From assembly GCA_002401955.1 (NCBI GenBank), contig NVUQ01000008.1, positions 1-64,000 of the forward strand: a stretch of DNA of 64,000 nt, written 5' to 3'. Shown here piece after piece: positions 4,507-60,480 of this stretch (position 1 is the stretch's first letter; each line of letters starts with the position of its first letter). A program made the position numbers and the translations under genes. The DNA comes from Flavobacteriales bacterium (GTDB lineage Bacteria; Bacteroidota; Bacteroidia; Flavobacteriales_E; Vicingaceae). The notes beneath the pieces are model-generated. The model was not told the DNA's origin. It was given only the letters and a program-made list of their open reading frames with translations, and did not search any database.

Positions 4507-4595
4507 GTCTAACGTCTAACGTCTAACGTCTAACGTCTAACGTCTAACGTCTAACGTCTAACGTCTAACGTCTAACGTCTAACGTCTAACGTCTA
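4507..4595. repeat. Heptanucleotide tandem array (GTCTAAC)x12 plus partial copy
   Basis: Direct reading: twelve exact 7-bp units 4507-4590, then gtcta. Confidence 0.97.
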
Positions 4596-14730: not shown

Positions 14731-14778
14731 TATATAGTTGTTGGTATTTGGTGTATAGTTTATGGAAAAAGTATTTTA

Positions 14779-14848
14779 CACTAAACACTAAACACTAAAC
14801 ACTAAACACTAAACACTAAACACTAAACACTAAACACTAAACACTAAA
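14779..14848. repeat. Heptanucleotide tandem array (CACTAAA)x10
   Basis: Ten exact 7-bp units read directly, between convergent rhomboid and uvrB genes. Confidence 0.97.
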
Positions 14849-14854
14849 CACCAA

Positions 14855-50440: not shown

Positions 50441-51235
50441 AGGTTGTCTATTTTATAATATTGAGATTGAAATTTAATCTTAGGCATATTTATAAAGATG
50501 ATTTTTTATTTTTTTTGTTAGAGGAACTTCACTTATATGACCTATGATTAAGCTAATTACATTTGATATAATAAAAGCAATTAAAAAGTTCAAATAAGGA
50601 TTAAAAGTCTCAGAATAATGAGTATGCATAAAATCTATTATACTATAGTGGATAAGATATAATGTGAATGAATAACTAGCTCCAAGCCTAATAATTTTTG
50701 TTATGTTAACGAGGATCATTATTTTTTCACAGAGGTCCAATAAAAGTAATAAAAGTAATAAAATAATAGCTAATGTAAATGCAAAAATAGGATCATATGC
50801 ATTTCTTGTAATATAGCATCTGGCAGAAGCGATTAATATCAATAAAATGAAAGATAAAATCTTAATATTGAATTTAACTTTCTGTAAAATATCATATCTT
50901 TTTAAGAAGAAAATAAGTGAACCAAAAATCCAATAAATACTTAATCCGTTCCCTCTTCCTCCTATAAGATTATAAAATGGTACAATTGAAAAAAAGGATA
51001 AAAGTATTAAGTTAATAACGTTATTTTTCTTTTTCCTATGGATGACAAGTACAATGTATCCAAAACATAGGTATATCCACCATTCCACAGCTAAAGTCCA
51101 GAATGGACGAGCTGAACCAAAACTAGTAATATTTAAGTAATTAAAAGCTGGAAAATCTTGTAACATAAAAACGTTTCCGATAAATGTTTTAATATTAAAA
51201 GCACTTTCGTATGAATAATCACCCATACTTTTGCT

Positions 51236-51260
51236 AATAAAATCTAATAAAATCTAATAA
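51236..51260. repeat. 10-bp tandem repeat (aatctaataa), two copies plus partial
   Basis: gctaataa aatctaataa aatctaataa gagcac. Confidence 0.92.
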
Positions 51261-51458
51261 GAGCACAAATAAGAGGGCTGGTATAAAAGCAATATAAATT
51301 CGAGTAAATCTATCTATAAAAAAAAGTTTGAAAGTATAATTTTCTTTATTAAAAGTTGAGTATGTTATCAGAAAACAGGAAAGAATAAAAAAGATTAGCA
51401 CGGCAGTATTTTGCATCCAGGGGATATTGGGTTGATGTAAAAAAGAAAATATTCCGAA

Positions 51459-51470
51459 GATATATATATA
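51459..51470. repeat. Dinucleotide repeat (AT)6 inside acyltransferase 5' region
   Basis: ttccgaag(at)6catggcc read directly. Confidence 0.95.
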
Positions 51471-51584
51471 TCATGGCCTATAACAACAGCTTGAGAACTT
51501 AATAGACGAATTAAATCTAAAATGATGGAATTACTCTCCGATAATTTATATCTGATCATGTTTTATGTGTTTTAAGGAGGATTG

Positions 51585-52325
51585 TTAAATGGCAGTCCAT
51601 CCTCCATCTATAATTAAATTATGTCCAGTAATATATTTAGATTGGTCAGATAGAAGAAAAACTACACTGGGAGCAATATCATTTGGTGTTGCCATTCTAC
51701 CTAAGGGTACTTTTTTTTCATAAGAATCAATAAAAGATTGAGGTTGATTATTTAAAACTCCACCAGGACTAACACAATTTACTCTCAGATTACTTTTGCC
51801 GTAATAAGAGGCTAAATATTTAGTTAGGCTATTAATACCTCCTTTAATAGCAGAATATGCAGCAGGCATAGTCATATTTGTTTTATCGTACACATCAAAA
51901 TCTGGTCCTATAGTACCATATATGGAACTAATATTTATGAATGAACCAGTTTCTTTATTTTTCATAATTTCTAGTACTTTCTGCATACAATAAAAATATG
52001 AATTCATCTGCCAGCTTACATTTTTTTCCCAAGATTTAAAAGGGATATCTTCAAATTTTGCTCCCCAATCTTCAGTTCTTGGATAGGCATTGTTTACCCA
52101 GCCATCAATTCGGCCATAATGTTTAATAATTAAATTAATTTTTACATCTATACTTTCTGTAGAGGTAATGTCTAAATTAATTTCATTTTTATCTAATTGA
52201 TCTTTACAATTGATGTCTGCATTTATTGCCGTTCCTCCTTCATTTTCAATGTGTGAAATAAAAGATTTACCTAATAAACCATTTCCTCCTGTAACAACAA
52301 TTATTTTATTATCTAGCTTATTCAT
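51585..52325 (-). CDS. SDR-family oxidoreductase, PtmA-like
   Basis: IIVVTGGNGLLGKSFI, NISSIYG, YSAIKGGINSLTKYLA, ITGHNLIIDGGWTA. Confidence 0.88.
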   Translation of the reverse strand: MNKLDNKIIVVTGGNGLLGKSFISHIENEGGTAINADINCKDQLDKNEINLDITSTESIDVKINLIIKHYGRIDGWVNNAYPRTEDWGAKFEDIPFKSWEKNVSWQMNSYFYCMQKVLEIMKNKETGSFINISSIYGTIGPDFDVYDKTNMTMPAAYSAIKGGINSLTKYLASYYGKSNLRVNCVSPGGVLNNQPQSFIDSYEKKVPLGRMATPNDIAPSVVFLLSDQSKYITGHNLIIDGGWTAI

Positions 52326-54012: not shown

Positions 54013-55431
54013 TTAATGAATGTTTTCTGAAAGTGTTTTTTTTATAATGTTGAGTTTATCTTCAATTGAATCTTGAATTTTAACAGGTAAATTTAAACCT
54101 CTTTCGGATATCTTTTTAGAGACTTTGTTTGAAAATAAGTAAGGTTTATAAAGTGGCATATCTCCTAATGAATAGAAAAATGGTCTACTATCAATACCTT
54201 TTTTTCTTAGCCTTTCAATTATTTTATCACGATTTTGTGGTACCAAACCACAAATTAACCAGGTAACTTTATTTTTATTTTCTAAATTGATTTGCCATTT
54301 AATAAGCTCTTTATTGTTAATGGTTTTTCTATAAGAATTTTCTGTTGTACTATTTAATTCATGTATTTCAGTTATCCGCTCTAATTGAGCACACCCTATA
54401 GCTGCTTGTAAATTGGTCATTCTATAATTATACCCTAGTTCATCATGCCAATACTTTCTTTTAGGGTTCATGCCATGATCTCGTAGCATTCGCATCTTTT
54501 GATTTAATTTTTCGTTATTAGTTACGCACATTCCTCCTTCTCCTGTAGTAATTATTTTATTAGCAAAAAAAGAAAATGTTGAGATGTCACCAAACGAACC
54601 AACTTTCCCCCCCTTAAATTCGGCTCCATGTGCTTCTGCACAATCTTCAATAACATATAAATTATGTTCTTTTGCAAGCGTCATAATCTGATCCATATCG
54701 CAGGGTTGACCATAAATGTGAACAGGAATAATAGCTTTAGTTTTATCTGTAAGGGCTTTTTTAATTTCATTACAATCTATTGTCCAATCGTCTTCTTTTA
54801 CATCTACAATTACAGGTGTAGCATTAGCATGAAGTACCGCATTTATTGTGGCTGCAAAAGTTAAGTCAGGAACAATTACTTCATCTCCTTCACCAACTCC
54901 CAAAGCTTTTAATGCAAGATGTATTGCAACAGTACCATTAGATGTACTTACACCATAATTAGTGCTACAATAGGTTGAAAAATCTTTTTCAAACCTATCA
55001 ATGTATGCTCCTCGAGATGAAATCCATGTGGAAGAGAAGGCATCAACTAAATACTCCAATTCTTTACCGTTTAAATCAGGTTCAGAAATAGGCGTAAAAT
55101 GTGTTTTATGCTTGTATTCAAAATAATCAACCAGCATATGCTTCGAATCTACAATAGGAATTATTTGAACTTTCTTGTTAATTTTATTCATTAATGCTAA
55201 AATATCTTCGCCTTCTTTTGCCACAACACTTGATTTATTATGGTATTCAGTACTTAATTTGATACTTAATTTTTTTTCTTTAAGCAACATTCTACGTAGA
55301 TCTCCATCTGTAAAAACGGAGTGAAATTTACCATCTGAATTTATTAGAAACGCGATTCCAGCTGGAGCAGAATTTATGGCTTCAATGATACCAATTAAGT
55401 CTGAATCGATATTTATGATAGAATCTTTCAT
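54013..55431 (-). CDS. CBS-domain pair fused to DegT/DnrJ/EryC1/StrS aminotransferase
   Basis: N-term GKFHSVFTDGDLRRMLLKEKK...VQIIPIVDSKHMLVDYFEY; then ISEPDLNGKELEYLVDAFSSTWISSRG...FSFFANKIITTGEGGM. Confidence 0.88.
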   Translation of the reverse strand: MKDSIINIDSDLIGIIEAINSAPAGIAFLINSDGKFHSVFTDGDLRRMLLKEKKLSIKLSTEYHNKSSVVAKEGEDILALMNKINKKVQIIPIVDSKHMLVDYFEYKHKTHFTPISEPDLNGKELEYLVDAFSSTWISSRGAYIDRFEKDFSTYCSTNYGVSTSNGTVAIHLALKALGVGEGDEVIVPDLTFAATINAVLHANATPVIVDVKEDDWTIDCNEIKKALTDKTKAIIPVHIYGQPCDMDQIMTLAKEHNLYVIEDCAEAHGAEFKGGKVGSFGDISTFSFFANKIITTGEGGMCVTNNEKLNQKMRMLRDHGMNPKRKYWHDELGYNYRMTNLQAAIGCAQLERITEIHELNSTTENSYRKTINNKELIKWQINLENKNKVTWLICGLVPQNRDKIIERLRKKGIDSRPFFYSLGDMPLYKPYLFSNKVSKKISERGLNLPVKIQDSIEDKLNIIKKTLSENIH

Positions 55432-56285
55432 TTTTCTATGTGGTTTTTTACATTGGTAAATGATTCTTTAATAATATCTAAAGAATCATAAATCTCTAAG
55501 GTTATATCTTTACCTTTAAAATCTGATGGAGGTATAAAATCAAAGATTTCGGATGAAGTGGTAATTTCCTTATTTTGATCTGTTAACCCATTATTATCAC
55601 TCAAATGTATATAATCTGTTTTATTTATTAGCTTGTTGAGCTCTTTTTTAAGATCTAATTGTAATACATTGCAACTTACTTTTAGATGAGCAAAATCTAT
55701 TAAAGGTTTTACACCTTCTAGCAATATTTCGTTTAATGTTTCTGAAGCAGTAAATAAAAATGGATCAATTGAATTGAAGTTTTCATAATTTGTTCGAGAT
55801 AAGACATTGTTTTCAATATACAAATTAACACCAAATTTATTACTTGCATTTATTAATTCGGACACCCCATTTTTAAAGCGATTAATTGCTTCGGTTCTAT
55901 TAAATAGGTTTTGATTTTTAATGGAATTTCCTATCTGAGAAATGGGTATGTTAATTAGAAAACCTGCATGGAAACCAAATTTTTTTGCCCCAAGTTTATG
56001 GCTTAATTCTATTGAACTTATAAGGTGAGTTAGACTCATGTTATAAATGTCATCGTTTAAAGATGCTAGATTTAATACAAATGGTTTTTTTGGAGGGGGA
56101 AAGTAATTATGACATAAATAATTTAACTTGTATTCGTCTTTTAATTTTAATAAATCATTTACTAAATCAGGGTATGGTTTTGTGCCGCCAGATAATTCTA
56201 TATTTCTAAAACCATTTCTTGCTAATTCAAGTACACTATCCTTAATTTTATTAGCCTTAACGCATGAGCTAGAAATGTAAATCAT
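55428..56285 (-). CDS. Sugar phosphate isomerase/epimerase family (TIM barrel)
   Basis: ARNGFRNIELSGGT; GAKKFGFHAGFL; YIENNVLS; LIDFAHLKVSC; YIHLSDNNG. Confidence 0.8.
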   Translation of the reverse strand: MIYISSSCVKANKIKDSVLELARNGFRNIELSGGTKPYPDLVNDLLKLKDEYKLNYLCHNYFPPPKKPFVLNLASLNDDIYNMSLTHLISSIELSHKLGAKKFGFHAGFLINIPISQIGNSIKNQNLFNRTEAINRFKNGVSELINASNKFGVNLYIENNVLSRTNYENFNSIDPFLFTASETLNEILLEGVKPLIDFAHLKVSCNVLQLDLKKELNKLINKTDYIHLSDNNGLTDQNKEITTSSEIFDFIPPSDFKGKDITLEIYDSLDIIKESFTNVKNHIEK

Positions 56286-56896
56286 TTTATTTTTCTTGCG
56301 GGATTACCTACATAAGTGCCTGCTTCCATAATGTCTGTTATTACAACACTTCCAGCGCCAATAGTAACATCACTTACTATTTTTAGTTTATCTATTATTG
56401 TGGCGTTAGCCCCAACAAATACGCAATCTCCAATTTCAACTCTCCCTGATATAACAGTCCCGATGCTTATGTGGCAGTGCGAACCAATTTTAGATTCATG
56501 TTCAATTATGCAGCAAGAATTGATAATGTTATTATTTCCAATTTCAGTTTCTCCATTAATAAAAACATTTGGGAATATTTGATTACTATCTCCAATTTTA
56601 GAGGAGGGACATATAATACTGCTCTTATGAATCAAAGAGTCTATTTTTAAATTTATGTTATTTGAGTTATATAAGTTTGCTCTTGTTTTATTATCTCCAA
56701 TTGCTAATACTAGCTTATTATTTCCAGGTAAATCTTCAATTTTTCCTTTAAGTGTTACTTGAGAAATTATTTCATTCGAATTGATATTATATGAATCATC
56801 GTAAATTCCAATAAAATTATATTGATCTTTAAATGAGGAAATAATACTTCTGGTATGCCCCCCAGCACCGATAATATTTAAGTCTATTTTAGTCAA
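56282..56896 (-). CDS. NeuD-like sugar O/N-acyltransferase
   Basis: LNIIGAGGHTRSIISSFK N-terminal domain plus hexapeptide repeats; GAGSVVITDIMEAGTYVGNPARKIK. Confidence 0.88.
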   Translation of the reverse strand: MTKIDLNIIGAGGHTRSIISSFKDQYNFIGIYDDSYNINSNEIISQVTLKGKIEDLPGNNKLVLAIGDNKTRANLYNSNNINLKIDSLIHKSSIICPSSKIGDSNQIFPNVFINGETEIGNNNIINSCCIIEHESKIGSHCHISIGTVISGRVEIGDCVFVGANATIIDKLKIVSDVTIGAGSVVITDIMEAGTYVGNPARKIK

Positions 56897-57932
56897 TTAA
56901 TTCGTCAGTTAAGTAATTTTTTTTTGCAATTTTTCCGATATAATCTAAGCCATGAATAGCACTAACTCCATTTCCTCCTGCCCGTTTAGCAACTATGTTG
57001 GTTGTAGAAAATACCTCCCCTTGAATTATTTCTTTTGATGCAACAAGTGATTTTTGCAGTGATTTTTTATTAGAAATTTCTCCAGGTGTAATTCTTTTCA
57101 TTGAATTAGATAAGAATTGCTCGCAACGCCTTATTTCTTTTACAAAACTTTTTAATTCGCTTGGAGATAAAGATGCAGAGTGATCTGGACCATTAGCAGA
57201 TTTATCTATAGTAAAATGTTTTTCCACAACTTTGGCTCCTAATGGCAAAGAATAAATAGCTGCACCAAGGCCAACAGAATGGTCTGAATACCCGAGTAAA
57301 CAACCGTAACGTTCTTTATATTGATTTAATACCAATAGGTCAGCTTCATTGTCACTAATAGGGTAATTAGCTGTGCATTGTAATAGTATTAATTTAAGAT
57401 TAATCTCTTTAAATATTTTAACAGCTTTATCTACTTCTTCAATATCACACATCCCTGTAGAAAGGAAAACAGGCTTATTTGTTTGAGCAATTTTTTTCAA
57501 AAATAAAAGATTAGTAGTATCCGTTGAAGCAATTTTATAGGCAGGGATATCAATGCTTTCTAATTCTTTTAAACTTTCTTCGTCAAAAGGTGTTATTAGA
57601 AACAAAATCCCCTTACTCTCACAATAAGATTTCAATTCAATATAAGCATCTAGGTTCAGTTCTAATTTTCGGAGCATAGAAGCCTGACTATCTTCATTTT
57701 TTGTATTTTGAATTTGATAATCAGCTTTTTTTACGGTATTTAATATGAGTTTATCAGTCCTAAATGCTTGAAATTTTACAGCGTCCACCTGGGCTTCAGC
57801 TGCAATATCAACTAATTTTTTTGCCAACTCAACATCTCCACCATGATTAACACCAGCCTCAGCAATTATGAATGTTTTACCCTTTTCAGAGATTAACCTT
57901 CCGTCAATATATATTTCCTTGTAAAACTCCAT
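56889..57932 (-). CDS. neuB: N-acetylneuraminate synthase family protein (NeuB)
   Basis: FIIAEAGVNHGGDVELAKKLVDIAAEAQVDAVKFQAF; YSDHSVGLGAAIYS; VVEKHFTIDKSANGPDHSASL; C-term SAF-like domain. Confidence 0.95.
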   Translation of the reverse strand: MEFYKEIYIDGRLISEKGKTFIIAEAGVNHGGDVELAKKLVDIAAEAQVDAVKFQAFRTDKLILNTVKKADYQIQNTKNEDSQASMLRKLELNLDAYIELKSYCESKGILFLITPFDEESLKELESIDIPAYKIASTDTTNLLFLKKIAQTNKPVFLSTGMCDIEEVDKAVKIFKEINLKLILLQCTANYPISDNEADLLVLNQYKERYGCLLGYSDHSVGLGAAIYSLPLGAKVVEKHFTIDKSANGPDHSASLSPSELKSFVKEIRRCEQFLSNSMKRITPGEISNKKSLQKSLVASKEIIQGEVFSTTNIVAKRAGGNGVSAIHGLDYIGKIAKKNYLTDELID

Positions 57933-58107: not shown

Positions 58108-60480
58108 TTATTTTTTTCTTCTTAAGAAAGACTTTTTCTTTGGTTTATTAGCTTCTTCATCATAATAACCATAACCATAACCATAACCATAACCATAGCC
58201 ATAGCTATATCCACCGTAACCAATTCGTTCTTGTTCTATATCATTCACTACAATACCACACTTGTTTTTAAAAGGTTGAAGCTCTTCATTTATCTTTTTA
58301 AGATTAGATAATGAGGTGTATTTTTGTCGAATTATTAATAGTATCACATCGGAATAGTCAATTAAAATACGAGCATCAGTAACTAATCCAATGGGAGAAG
58401 TATCCAATATTATGCGTTCGTATTTTCCTTTTAGTTCATTAAGCAATGTCGAAAATTCACTTGAAGATAGTAATTCTGATGGATTGGGCGGAATAGGTCC
58501 AGATGTTATTAAATCTAAGTTTTCATTCTCTGTTTTTTGAGTAGCTTCAGCAACACTACATTTTCCTATTAATAAAGTGCTTACACCTATATTATTAGAT
58601 ACACCAAAATCATCGTAAATACGTGGTTTACGTAAATCCGCCCCAATTAAAATTGTTTTTTTTCCTAGTAAAGCATAAGATAGGGCAATATTCATTGAAC
58701 AAAATGTTTTTCCTTCTCCACTTACTGAAGAGGTTAACATTATTACTTTAGAGGAATCTCCTTTAGAAAAATATTGAATATATGTTCTTATGGTTCTAAA
58801 TGCTTCAGATAACAATGATTTAGGTTTGTCTAACAAGATTAAATTACTGTCTTCTTTATTGTGGCCTATATTACCAATAATGGGAATATCTGTTAAACGA
58901 GTTACGTCATTTTTATCTATAATTTTGCTGTAAGATAGTTCAATTAATACAATTATTAAAATAGATAAAAAAATGGATATAAAAGTATATTTGAAATAAA
59001 TAGAACTATTAGATACACTAGTTTTACGCACTCGATATGGTGTAGCATAATCTATAATTACAGCCTTGGCTATGCTTGCAGCTTTTGCAATTCCAGCATC
59101 TTGTCTTTTATTTAACAAGAAAGTGTATAAATTGTTTTGAATGGTGTAATTTCTTAATGCTATTGCATAACCTCTTTCTGAATTAGGAACTTCTAATATT
59201 TTTTCCTCCAAAAATTTCAGTTGAGTTTTAATAATTAAAAAATCGTTTTCACTTTTATTTTTCAAAGAAATTAGGTTGGCAGTAAGAATTGATTTTGCTA
59301 TGTTAATTTCATTTAGCAAGAGCAACATTGAAGTGCTTTCTTCTTTTACTTGAAACTTCATTTCTTCTCTTAAATTATATTTACTAATTAATTTAACCAT
59401 TAAATCATATAGAACACTTGTTCTTGTAATGAAGTAAGGAATAACAATTCCTTTTGCATCATTATTTTCAGTAATATACTTTATAGTATTTTCAGAGAAA
59501 GAAATGGTAAATTCTAACTCCAGTTTCTTTTTTTCTAATTCTGTTATTTGAGATATGATATTTTCGCCATTTACATCAATTCGTTTTAAGTTACTTAAAT
59601 CTTTAAACTCTTTTAATTTAGCTTCTGCATTTATTAATGAGTCAGTAATATATTTTAGTTGTTCGTTAACAAACGCTAAGGTTTTTGTACCCTCTTGGTT
59701 TCCTTCATCTAAACCATATTGAATGAAGTTTTCCATAATGGAATTAGTAATATCAATTTCTTTGGAAGGAACCGTACTTGATAATGAAATGATTAGGATG
59801 GAAGATTCTTGATCTAAATCCACACTAATTTGTGTTGATTCTTGATAGAATTTTGCTAAACCATCTATGTTTTGGCATTGAAATTCAAACGTTTTATCTG
59901 ATATTCCCTCATATTTTTTATTCAGATGAATTGTTGCGGTATTATTTAAAAGATTGATTTTCTGATTAAATTTGTAAACACTTCCTTTATCTTTTTCAAA
60001 ACCATCTAAAGAAATTTTATAGCTATTTTCGTCTATTACTTTTAATGAAAAAATTGAGCCATAAATTCCGTTATCAATTAAGGTGTCTAAGGTTATTGTA
60101 AATGGTTTGTCGTGATATAACTCGGTTCTTCTAACTTTTCCAATGTCGTAATAATTAAATTGTAATTGAGGTAGGTCTCTTATAACATTTTGCATCAATG
60201 GAAAAGATTTAATAACACCAATATTATTTTTAATGTTACTTCGCTGATTAACGACTTCCATTCCTGGTAAAAAGTTATCTGCACCATAGCCTTTCCACTC
60301 TTCTTTTACTAAAACCCTACCATTAACGTTGAATGTTGGTACATTGTATCGAGCATTGTAAAAGCTAAAAGATAACCCAAGAATTAGCCCTATAACAAGA
60401 ATATACCAAAGTCGAAGTCCTTTAAAAAAATAGACTTTAAATTGTTCAACATTTAATCCAAAATTTTCAGCACTACTCAT
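58108..60480 (-). CDS. Wzc-like polysaccharide co-polymerase / BY-kinase
   Basis: Wzz N-term, TSSVSGEGKTFCSMNIALSYALLGKKTILIGADLRKPR Walker A/A', DTSPIGLVTDA, Tyr-rich C-term. Confidence 0.95.
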   Translation of the reverse strand: MSSAENFGLNVEQFKVYFFKGLRLWYILVIGLILGLSFSFYNARYNVPTFNVNGRVLVKEEWKGYGADNFLPGMEVVNQRSNIKNNIGVIKSFPLMQNVIRDLPQLQFNYYDIGKVRRTELYHDKPFTITLDTLIDNGIYGSIFSLKVIDENSYKISLDGFEKDKGSVYKFNQKINLLNNTATIHLNKKYEGISDKTFEFQCQNIDGLAKFYQESTQISVDLDQESSILIISLSSTVPSKEIDITNSIMENFIQYGLDEGNQEGTKTLAFVNEQLKYITDSLINAEAKLKEFKDLSNLKRIDVNGENIISQITELEKKKLELEFTISFSENTIKYITENNDAKGIVIPYFITRTSVLYDLMVKLISKYNLREEMKFQVKEESTSMLLLLNEINIAKSILTANLISLKNKSENDFLIIKTQLKFLEEKILEVPNSERGYAIALRNYTIQNNLYTFLLNKRQDAGIAKAASIAKAVIIDYATPYRVRKTSVSNSSIYFKYTFISIFLSILIIVLIELSYSKIIDKNDVTRLTDIPIIGNIGHNKEDSNLILLDKPKSLLSEAFRTIRTYIQYFSKGDSSKVIMLTSSVSGEGKTFCSMNIALSYALLGKKTILIGADLRKPRIYDDFGVSNNIGVSTLLIGKCSVAEATQKTENENLDLITSGPIPPNPSELLSSSEFSTLLNELKGKYERIILDTSPIGLVTDARILIDYSDVILLIIRQKYTSLSNLKKINEELQPFKNKCGIVVNDIEQERIGYGGYSYGYGYGYGYGYGYYDEEANKPKKKSFLRRKK
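58165..58206. repeat. Hexanucleotide repeat (ATAACC)x5 plus 2 degenerate copies inside wzc-like gene, encodes (YG)n
   Basis: Encodes GYSYGYGYGYGYGYGYYDEE; unit length 6 keeps reading frame. Confidence 0.92.

Follow-up and report, generated by a model that had tools for sequence, protein, structure and literature searches.

Several genes for acyltransferase-3 (AT3) proteins are phase variable. The oafA gene of Haemophilus influenzae contains tetranucleotide repeats, with switching reported between isolates, and the Salmonella oafB gene is subject to epigenetic switching (PMC9558356). Lag-1 of Legionella pneumophila is an AT3-only protein responsible for the 8-O-acetylation of legionaminic acid, and an inactive allele is changed in the FFxxSG motif (PMC9558356). 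In Salmonella Typhimurium, a 7-bp deletion in oafA yields the O:5-negative var. Copenhagen (Hauser et al. 2011, as cited in PMC11921320). Tandem-duplication phase variation has been described for the pneumococcal capsule genes cap3A, cap8E and tts (Waite et al. 2001, 2003, as cited in PMC4022640).

The window, meaning the whole stretch of 64,000 nucleotides that was analysed, contains on its minus strand an AT3 gene that has no uninterrupted open reading frame of about 360 amino acids. Instead, the gene is split into three pieces in two frames, with pieces 1 and 3 in the same frame, as listed here.

50480..51559, minus strand: whole acyltransferase-3 gene (conceptual), ATG at 51559-51557, stop at 50480-50482
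51395..51559, minus strand: piece 1, a 54-codon N-terminal open reading frame ending at a stop (translation aligned to relatives)
51460..51471, minus strand: (AT)6 run, first loss of frame, +2 compared with relatives (translations and tblastn)
51234..51469, minus strand: piece 2, middle of the AT3 domain (YIFGIFSFLHQPNIPWMQNTAVLIFFILSCFLITYS...DRFTRIY...FVLLLDFIRFY, then a stop); the listed open reading frame is 51234-51416
51234..51260, minus strand: period-10 tandem array of TTATTAGATT, 2.7 copies, second frameshift of the AT3 gene
50480..51226, minus strand: piece 3, C-terminal two thirds of the AT3 domain, a 248-aa open reading frame (PF01757)
50739..50763, minus strand: perfect period-9 tandem array of TTATTACTT, 2.8 copies, coding for LLLLLLLLL in frame, within piece 3

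The reading favored here, to which we give a probability of about 0.68, is that this AT3 gene of a legionaminic/pseudaminic-type nonulosonate cluster was recently inactivated by slippage-type insertions at short direct repeats. The locus resembles the pneumococcal cap3A, cap8E and tts genes in that a short exact tandem duplication breaks a surface-polysaccharide gene and could in principle be lost precisely. Unlike in those genes, a second tract is out of frame here and the target is a sugar O-acyltransferase rather than a capsule synthesis enzyme; the pneumococcal genes phase-vary, whereas the AT3 gene is known from one assembled sequence. The Salmonella Typhimurium oafA gene likewise encodes an AT3 acyltransferase inactivated by a small indel (an O-antigen acyltransferase in that case), but the change in oafA is a 7-bp deletion rather than insertions, and OafA has a fused SGNH domain whereas the protein here is AT3-only. 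Like oafA of H. influenzae, the window gene is a predicted AT3 O-acetyltransferase gene with a frame-controlling repeat; unlike that gene, for which switching between isolates is reported, it has tracts of only 2.7 and 6 units. Lag-1, likened here by its description, is similarly AT3-only, and the window protein is predicted from its neighboring genes to have a comparable legionaminic-type substrate.

The setting of the gene in a surface-polysaccharide locus is borne out by the genes beside it.

51585..52325, minus strand: SDR oxidoreductase, PtmA-like, conserved neighbor of the AT3 gene in L071-L073
52318..53235, minus strand: Gfo/Idh/MocA oxidoreductase, conserved neighbor in L071-L073
53232..53948, minus strand: CMP-nonulosonate cytidylyltransferase-like, PseF/PtmB type
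54013..55431, minus strand: DegT/LegC-family aminotransferase
56282..56896, minus strand: NeuD/PglB-family sugar acetyltransferase
56889..57932, minus strand: NeuB-family nonulosonate synthase

Since NeuB, NeuD, LegC, PseF/PtmB-like and PtmA-like genes are all present, the product of the cluster is likely a legionaminic/pseudaminic-type sugar for the cell surface, akin to sialic acid. By analogy with Lag-1 and from these neighbors, an intact AT3 protein would acylate the nonulosonate of the cluster. The remaining open reading frames of the cluster tile unbroken.

The 10-bp tandem duplication that the first-pass annotation had claimed at the junction of two open reading frames was found as a perfect array: on the minus strand, 51234-51260 reads TTATTAGATT TTATTAGATT TTATTAG, which is 27 bp at period 10 (2.7 copies, 100% matches), in the context ...GTGCTC TTATTAGATT TTATTAGATT TTATTAG CAAAAGTATG... 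In 200 simulated 64-kb windows of the same composition, no period between 4 and 30 gave as many as 17 matches in a row. The background for repeat rarity was 1.76 Mb of the same genome, taken in stretches, and this was the only period-10 array with at least 14 matches. Thus, the 10-bp array is not due to chance. The array also breaks an acyltransferase frame, as had been claimed, because its unit is not a multiple of 3 and the flanking open reading frames, 51234-51416 (60 aa) and 50480-51226 (248 aa), hit neighboring segments of PF01757 in a profile search (profile positions 47-98 and 112-325, respectively). Piece 3 scored 48.1 bits, above the curated cut-off of 31, which places it in the acyltransferase-3 family, and piece 2 scored 19.8 bits.

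The 60-aa open reading frame is not the beginning of the gene. Its first residue is an internal Met that lines up with position ~50 of relatives, and the gene starts at the ATG at 51559, not 51416, ~25 bp past the end of the SDR gene, with the N-terminus MIRYKLSESNSIILDLIRLLSSQAVVIGHDIYI in a different frame. The authentic N-terminus, including TM1 and the R-X10-H motif, comprises the first ~30 residues of piece 1. This N-terminal frame meets the middle frame (YIFGIFSFLHQPNIPWMQ...) within the run ATATATATATAT at 51460-51471, where the relative L005 reads straight through the corresponding place as VVIGHGISFFGIFKFLHEPNFPWMQ. Apart from this (AT)6 run, no AT run in the 1.76 Mb reaches 12 nt. 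Thus, both frame joints fall exactly on tandem repeats, (AT)6 and the period-10 array. In tblastn, the alignments of eight intact relatives ran in a single frame (frame 1) from 51559 down to about 50489, interrupted by stops between the two repeats; within 50480..51559 there are one TGA, two TAG and three TAA stops. Pieces 1 and 3 share a frame because +2 and +10 add up to +12. Mutual compensation of the two shifts was considered and ruled out by five stops between them.

Accordingly, the consequence drawn earlier for the 10-bp unit holds in part. Losing one copy does rejoin pieces 2 and 3, but the whole gene stays out of frame: the one continuous acyltransferase that had been expected does not result, as the true N-terminus lies in the other frame, beyond the (AT)6 frameshift. 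The proposed on/off switching by copy number fails for the same reason, as the upstream frameshift keeps the gene off at either 10-bp copy number. As predicted by translation, a change in the AT run by itself would leave a product cut short at about 110 aa, and loss of a 10-bp copy by itself would allow translation from 51416, without TM1 and the R-X10-H motif. A one-unit change in either tract would thus fail to restore the full-length protein, and no single-tract change would turn the AT3 gene on. No second copy of the locus, which might have had another repeat number, is present in the assembly.

The eight intact single-ORF relatives (L005, L006, L070, L071, L072, L073, L075 and L076) are about 360-384 aa long; L005 is a Saprospiraceae MAG (371 aa) and L006 is Neolewinella lacunae. 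PF01757 matched over its full length in all four relatives tested, and the gene order Gfo/Idh, SDR, AT3 is common to the window and L071-L073. Compared with these intact homologues the window gene is disrupted at more than one place, by two frameshifts, as is expected of a pseudogene. The AT3 gene is accessory in this genome, since neither the 13 genus mates nor the rest of the order yielded an orthologue. Searches with the L071 relative gave no further close relative in a phylum-wide sample and three relatives in the family of L071, all intact. Among solved structures, there was no sequence match to the AT3 protein. In G069, two overlapping matches had hinted at a frameshift, but the gene there proved to be an intact 386-aa open reading frame with an insertion. 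In an 'Alphaproteobacteria' MAG, a related AT3 gene (L007:3668-4758) is frameshifted at another place than the window gene. Its neighbors are the same kinds of genes, Gfo/Idh and a PtmA-like SDR, so the cluster may have been exchanged or the contig misbinned. This frameshift was rejected as a case of recurrent switching, the contig having a coverage of 1.08 and no tandem repeat being visible at the joint.

The conserved residues of the broken protein were compared with those of its relatives. The R/K-X10-H motif of TM1 is present as RLLSSQAVVIGH at the start of piece 1 and is severed from the remainder by the first frameshift; in OafA, the R-X10-H residues are essential, R14A and H25A having near zero activity (PMC7448272). 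The RXXR motif of the TM2-TM3 loop is present as DRFTRIY in piece 2. The FFxISG motif is altered to FFILSC, with Gly in all eight relatives and invariant in 31 characterised acyltransferases (PMC7448272). OafA tolerates a change from Gly to Ala at this position (PMC7448272), so the change to Cys here may be harmless and is a weak sign of decay. In the alignment, 58 of 60 residues invariant among the relatives are kept, the two changes being G65C (in FFxISG) and L353N near the C-terminus (alignment columns). The break is therefore probably recent. However, a gene that switches would also show mostly intact conserved residues.

The period-9 array is a third repeat in the same gene, and in the alignment it is a 3-aa insertion compared with all eight relatives. 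Outside open reading frames, five other arrays of period 8-12 were found in about 203 kb of sampled genome, so that about 0.03 would be expected in 1.1 kb, a figure to be read with the caveat that the gene was chosen because of one array. Three slippage-type products in one 1.1-kb gene are more than neutral sequence of this genome has. Inactivation by slippage is a known mechanism; the odd part is the gathering of three slippage products in one gene. This clustering is only partly explained by simple decay and counts against plain inactivation. The AT-rich, Leu-rich membrane codons (TTATTA...) are a source of short direct repeats, and the 7-bp repeat TTATTAG likely seeded the 10-bp duplication.

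With slippage as the putative mechanism, we infer the following events for a recently inactivated gene. A dinucleotide would have been gained in the AT run near the gene start, a 10-bp unit would have been duplicated at a pre-existing 7-bp direct repeat (TTATTAG...TTATTAG), and a 9-bp in-frame duplication would have arisen further along the gene. The presumed consequence would be loss of O-acylation of the nonulosonate. Judged by its frames, the gene is inactive in the lineage that was sequenced, and restoring it would require changes in both frame-breaking tracts.

The strongest alternative, which we nevertheless regard as unlikely, is a contingency locus in which slippage of the AT run and the 10-bp array toggles nonulosonate O-acylation, the sequenced clone being off at both. 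Repeat units of 2 bp ((AT)6) and 10 bp (2.7 copies), neither a multiple of 3, do lie within the reading frame of a surface-glycan gene, each is unique in 1.76 Mb, the remaining sequence is well conserved, and there are precedents in phase-variable AT3 genes (PMC9558356) and in pneumococcal capsule tandem duplications (PMC4022640). However, the two tracts must change together. In addition, both are short, at 2.7 and 6 units, where a contingency locus should have a long hypermutable tract. For insertions of up to 9 bp, the reversion quoted in PMC4022640 does not exceed ~1e-5, and here two insertions must revert. Repeats comparable to (AT)6 or the 10-bp array occur at these places in none of the eight relatives, so a switch is not conserved. 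A more specific form, in which the AT run and the 10-bp array must be in register and the period-9 array marks a slippage hot spot, seems more doubtful still. For these reasons, a recently inactivated gene is favored over a phase-variable gene.

It is improbable, to about the same degree as that two-tract form, that one or both frameshifts are sequencing or assembly consensus errors. The genome is a draft of 150 contigs with 83% completeness, and such errors do occur, for example in the frameshifted L007 relative from another draft, with its contig coverage of 1.08. Against this, 5 of 72 contig ends lie inside 45-94-bp heptamer arrays and no array exceeds 105 bp, which indicates a short-read assembly, and short reads fully span repeats of 12 and 27 bp. 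In the period-10 array, no repeated word is longer than 17 nt, so a k-mer graph cannot miscount its copies once k is 21 or more. An artefact would also require two errors, each coinciding exactly with one of the genome's rarest repeats, while the other open reading frames of the cluster are unbroken. Lastly, a split acyltransferase with a real domain boundary, or a set of two or three separate genes, is very improbable, although each of the two larger open reading frames has an ATG start and covers its own part of PF01757. All eight relatives are single open reading frames across both joints (three in the same Gfo/Idh-SDR-AT3 order), both joints lie inside the AT3 domain and the first piece is too short for a domain of its own.

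Other tandem repeats were observed in the window and the genome. Perfect heptanucleotide arrays of 10-15 copies lie in the window at 4507-4595 and 14778-14851, and elsewhere at L029:18454-18550, L035:16080-16184, L068:4159-4258, L103:1590-1689, L103:2658-2739, L117:11053-11147, L121:7801-7869 and L126:12596-12680. The units are diverse (GTTAGAC, TTAGTGT, TTAGAGA, TCAATTA, GAGTAAA and ACAGGAG, among others), and most of the arrays lie outside genes, several of them separating the 3' ends of two convergent genes. Arrays of TTAGTGT were found in three of nine genus mates searched and in none of five other families. Intergenic heptamer arrays of the unit TAACTGA are known from some Bacteroidetes, Cyanobacteria and Beggiatoaceae (PMC4679880); by comparison, the units in this genome seem more varied. 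Contigs of the window's genome (G000) end inside heptamer arrays at L024:1-66, L041:1-45, L084:321-400, L091:325-400 and L046:18967-19060. The arrays probably cause part of the assembly fragmentation, and their true lengths may be longer. An ATAACC hexamer array (6.5 copies, window 58165-58203) lies near the 3' end of a 790-aa open reading frame (58108-60480, minus strand); it is in frame, so variation would alter only the length of a repeat peptide. At L103:1577-1978, three period-7 arrays (TTTACTC/CTCTTTA) within 400 bp lie in a 133-aa open reading frame that may be repeat sequence only.

The locus carries a caution, in that a single repeat at a frame break is insufficient evidence for a switch unless the gene is otherwise in frame. 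If both tracts were to vary in length, this AT-rich bacterium would have an unusual phase-variable locus with a double lock. As a recently inactivated gene, the reading favored here, it would be an example of a surface-sugar O-acyltransferase lost through tiny repeat expansions.
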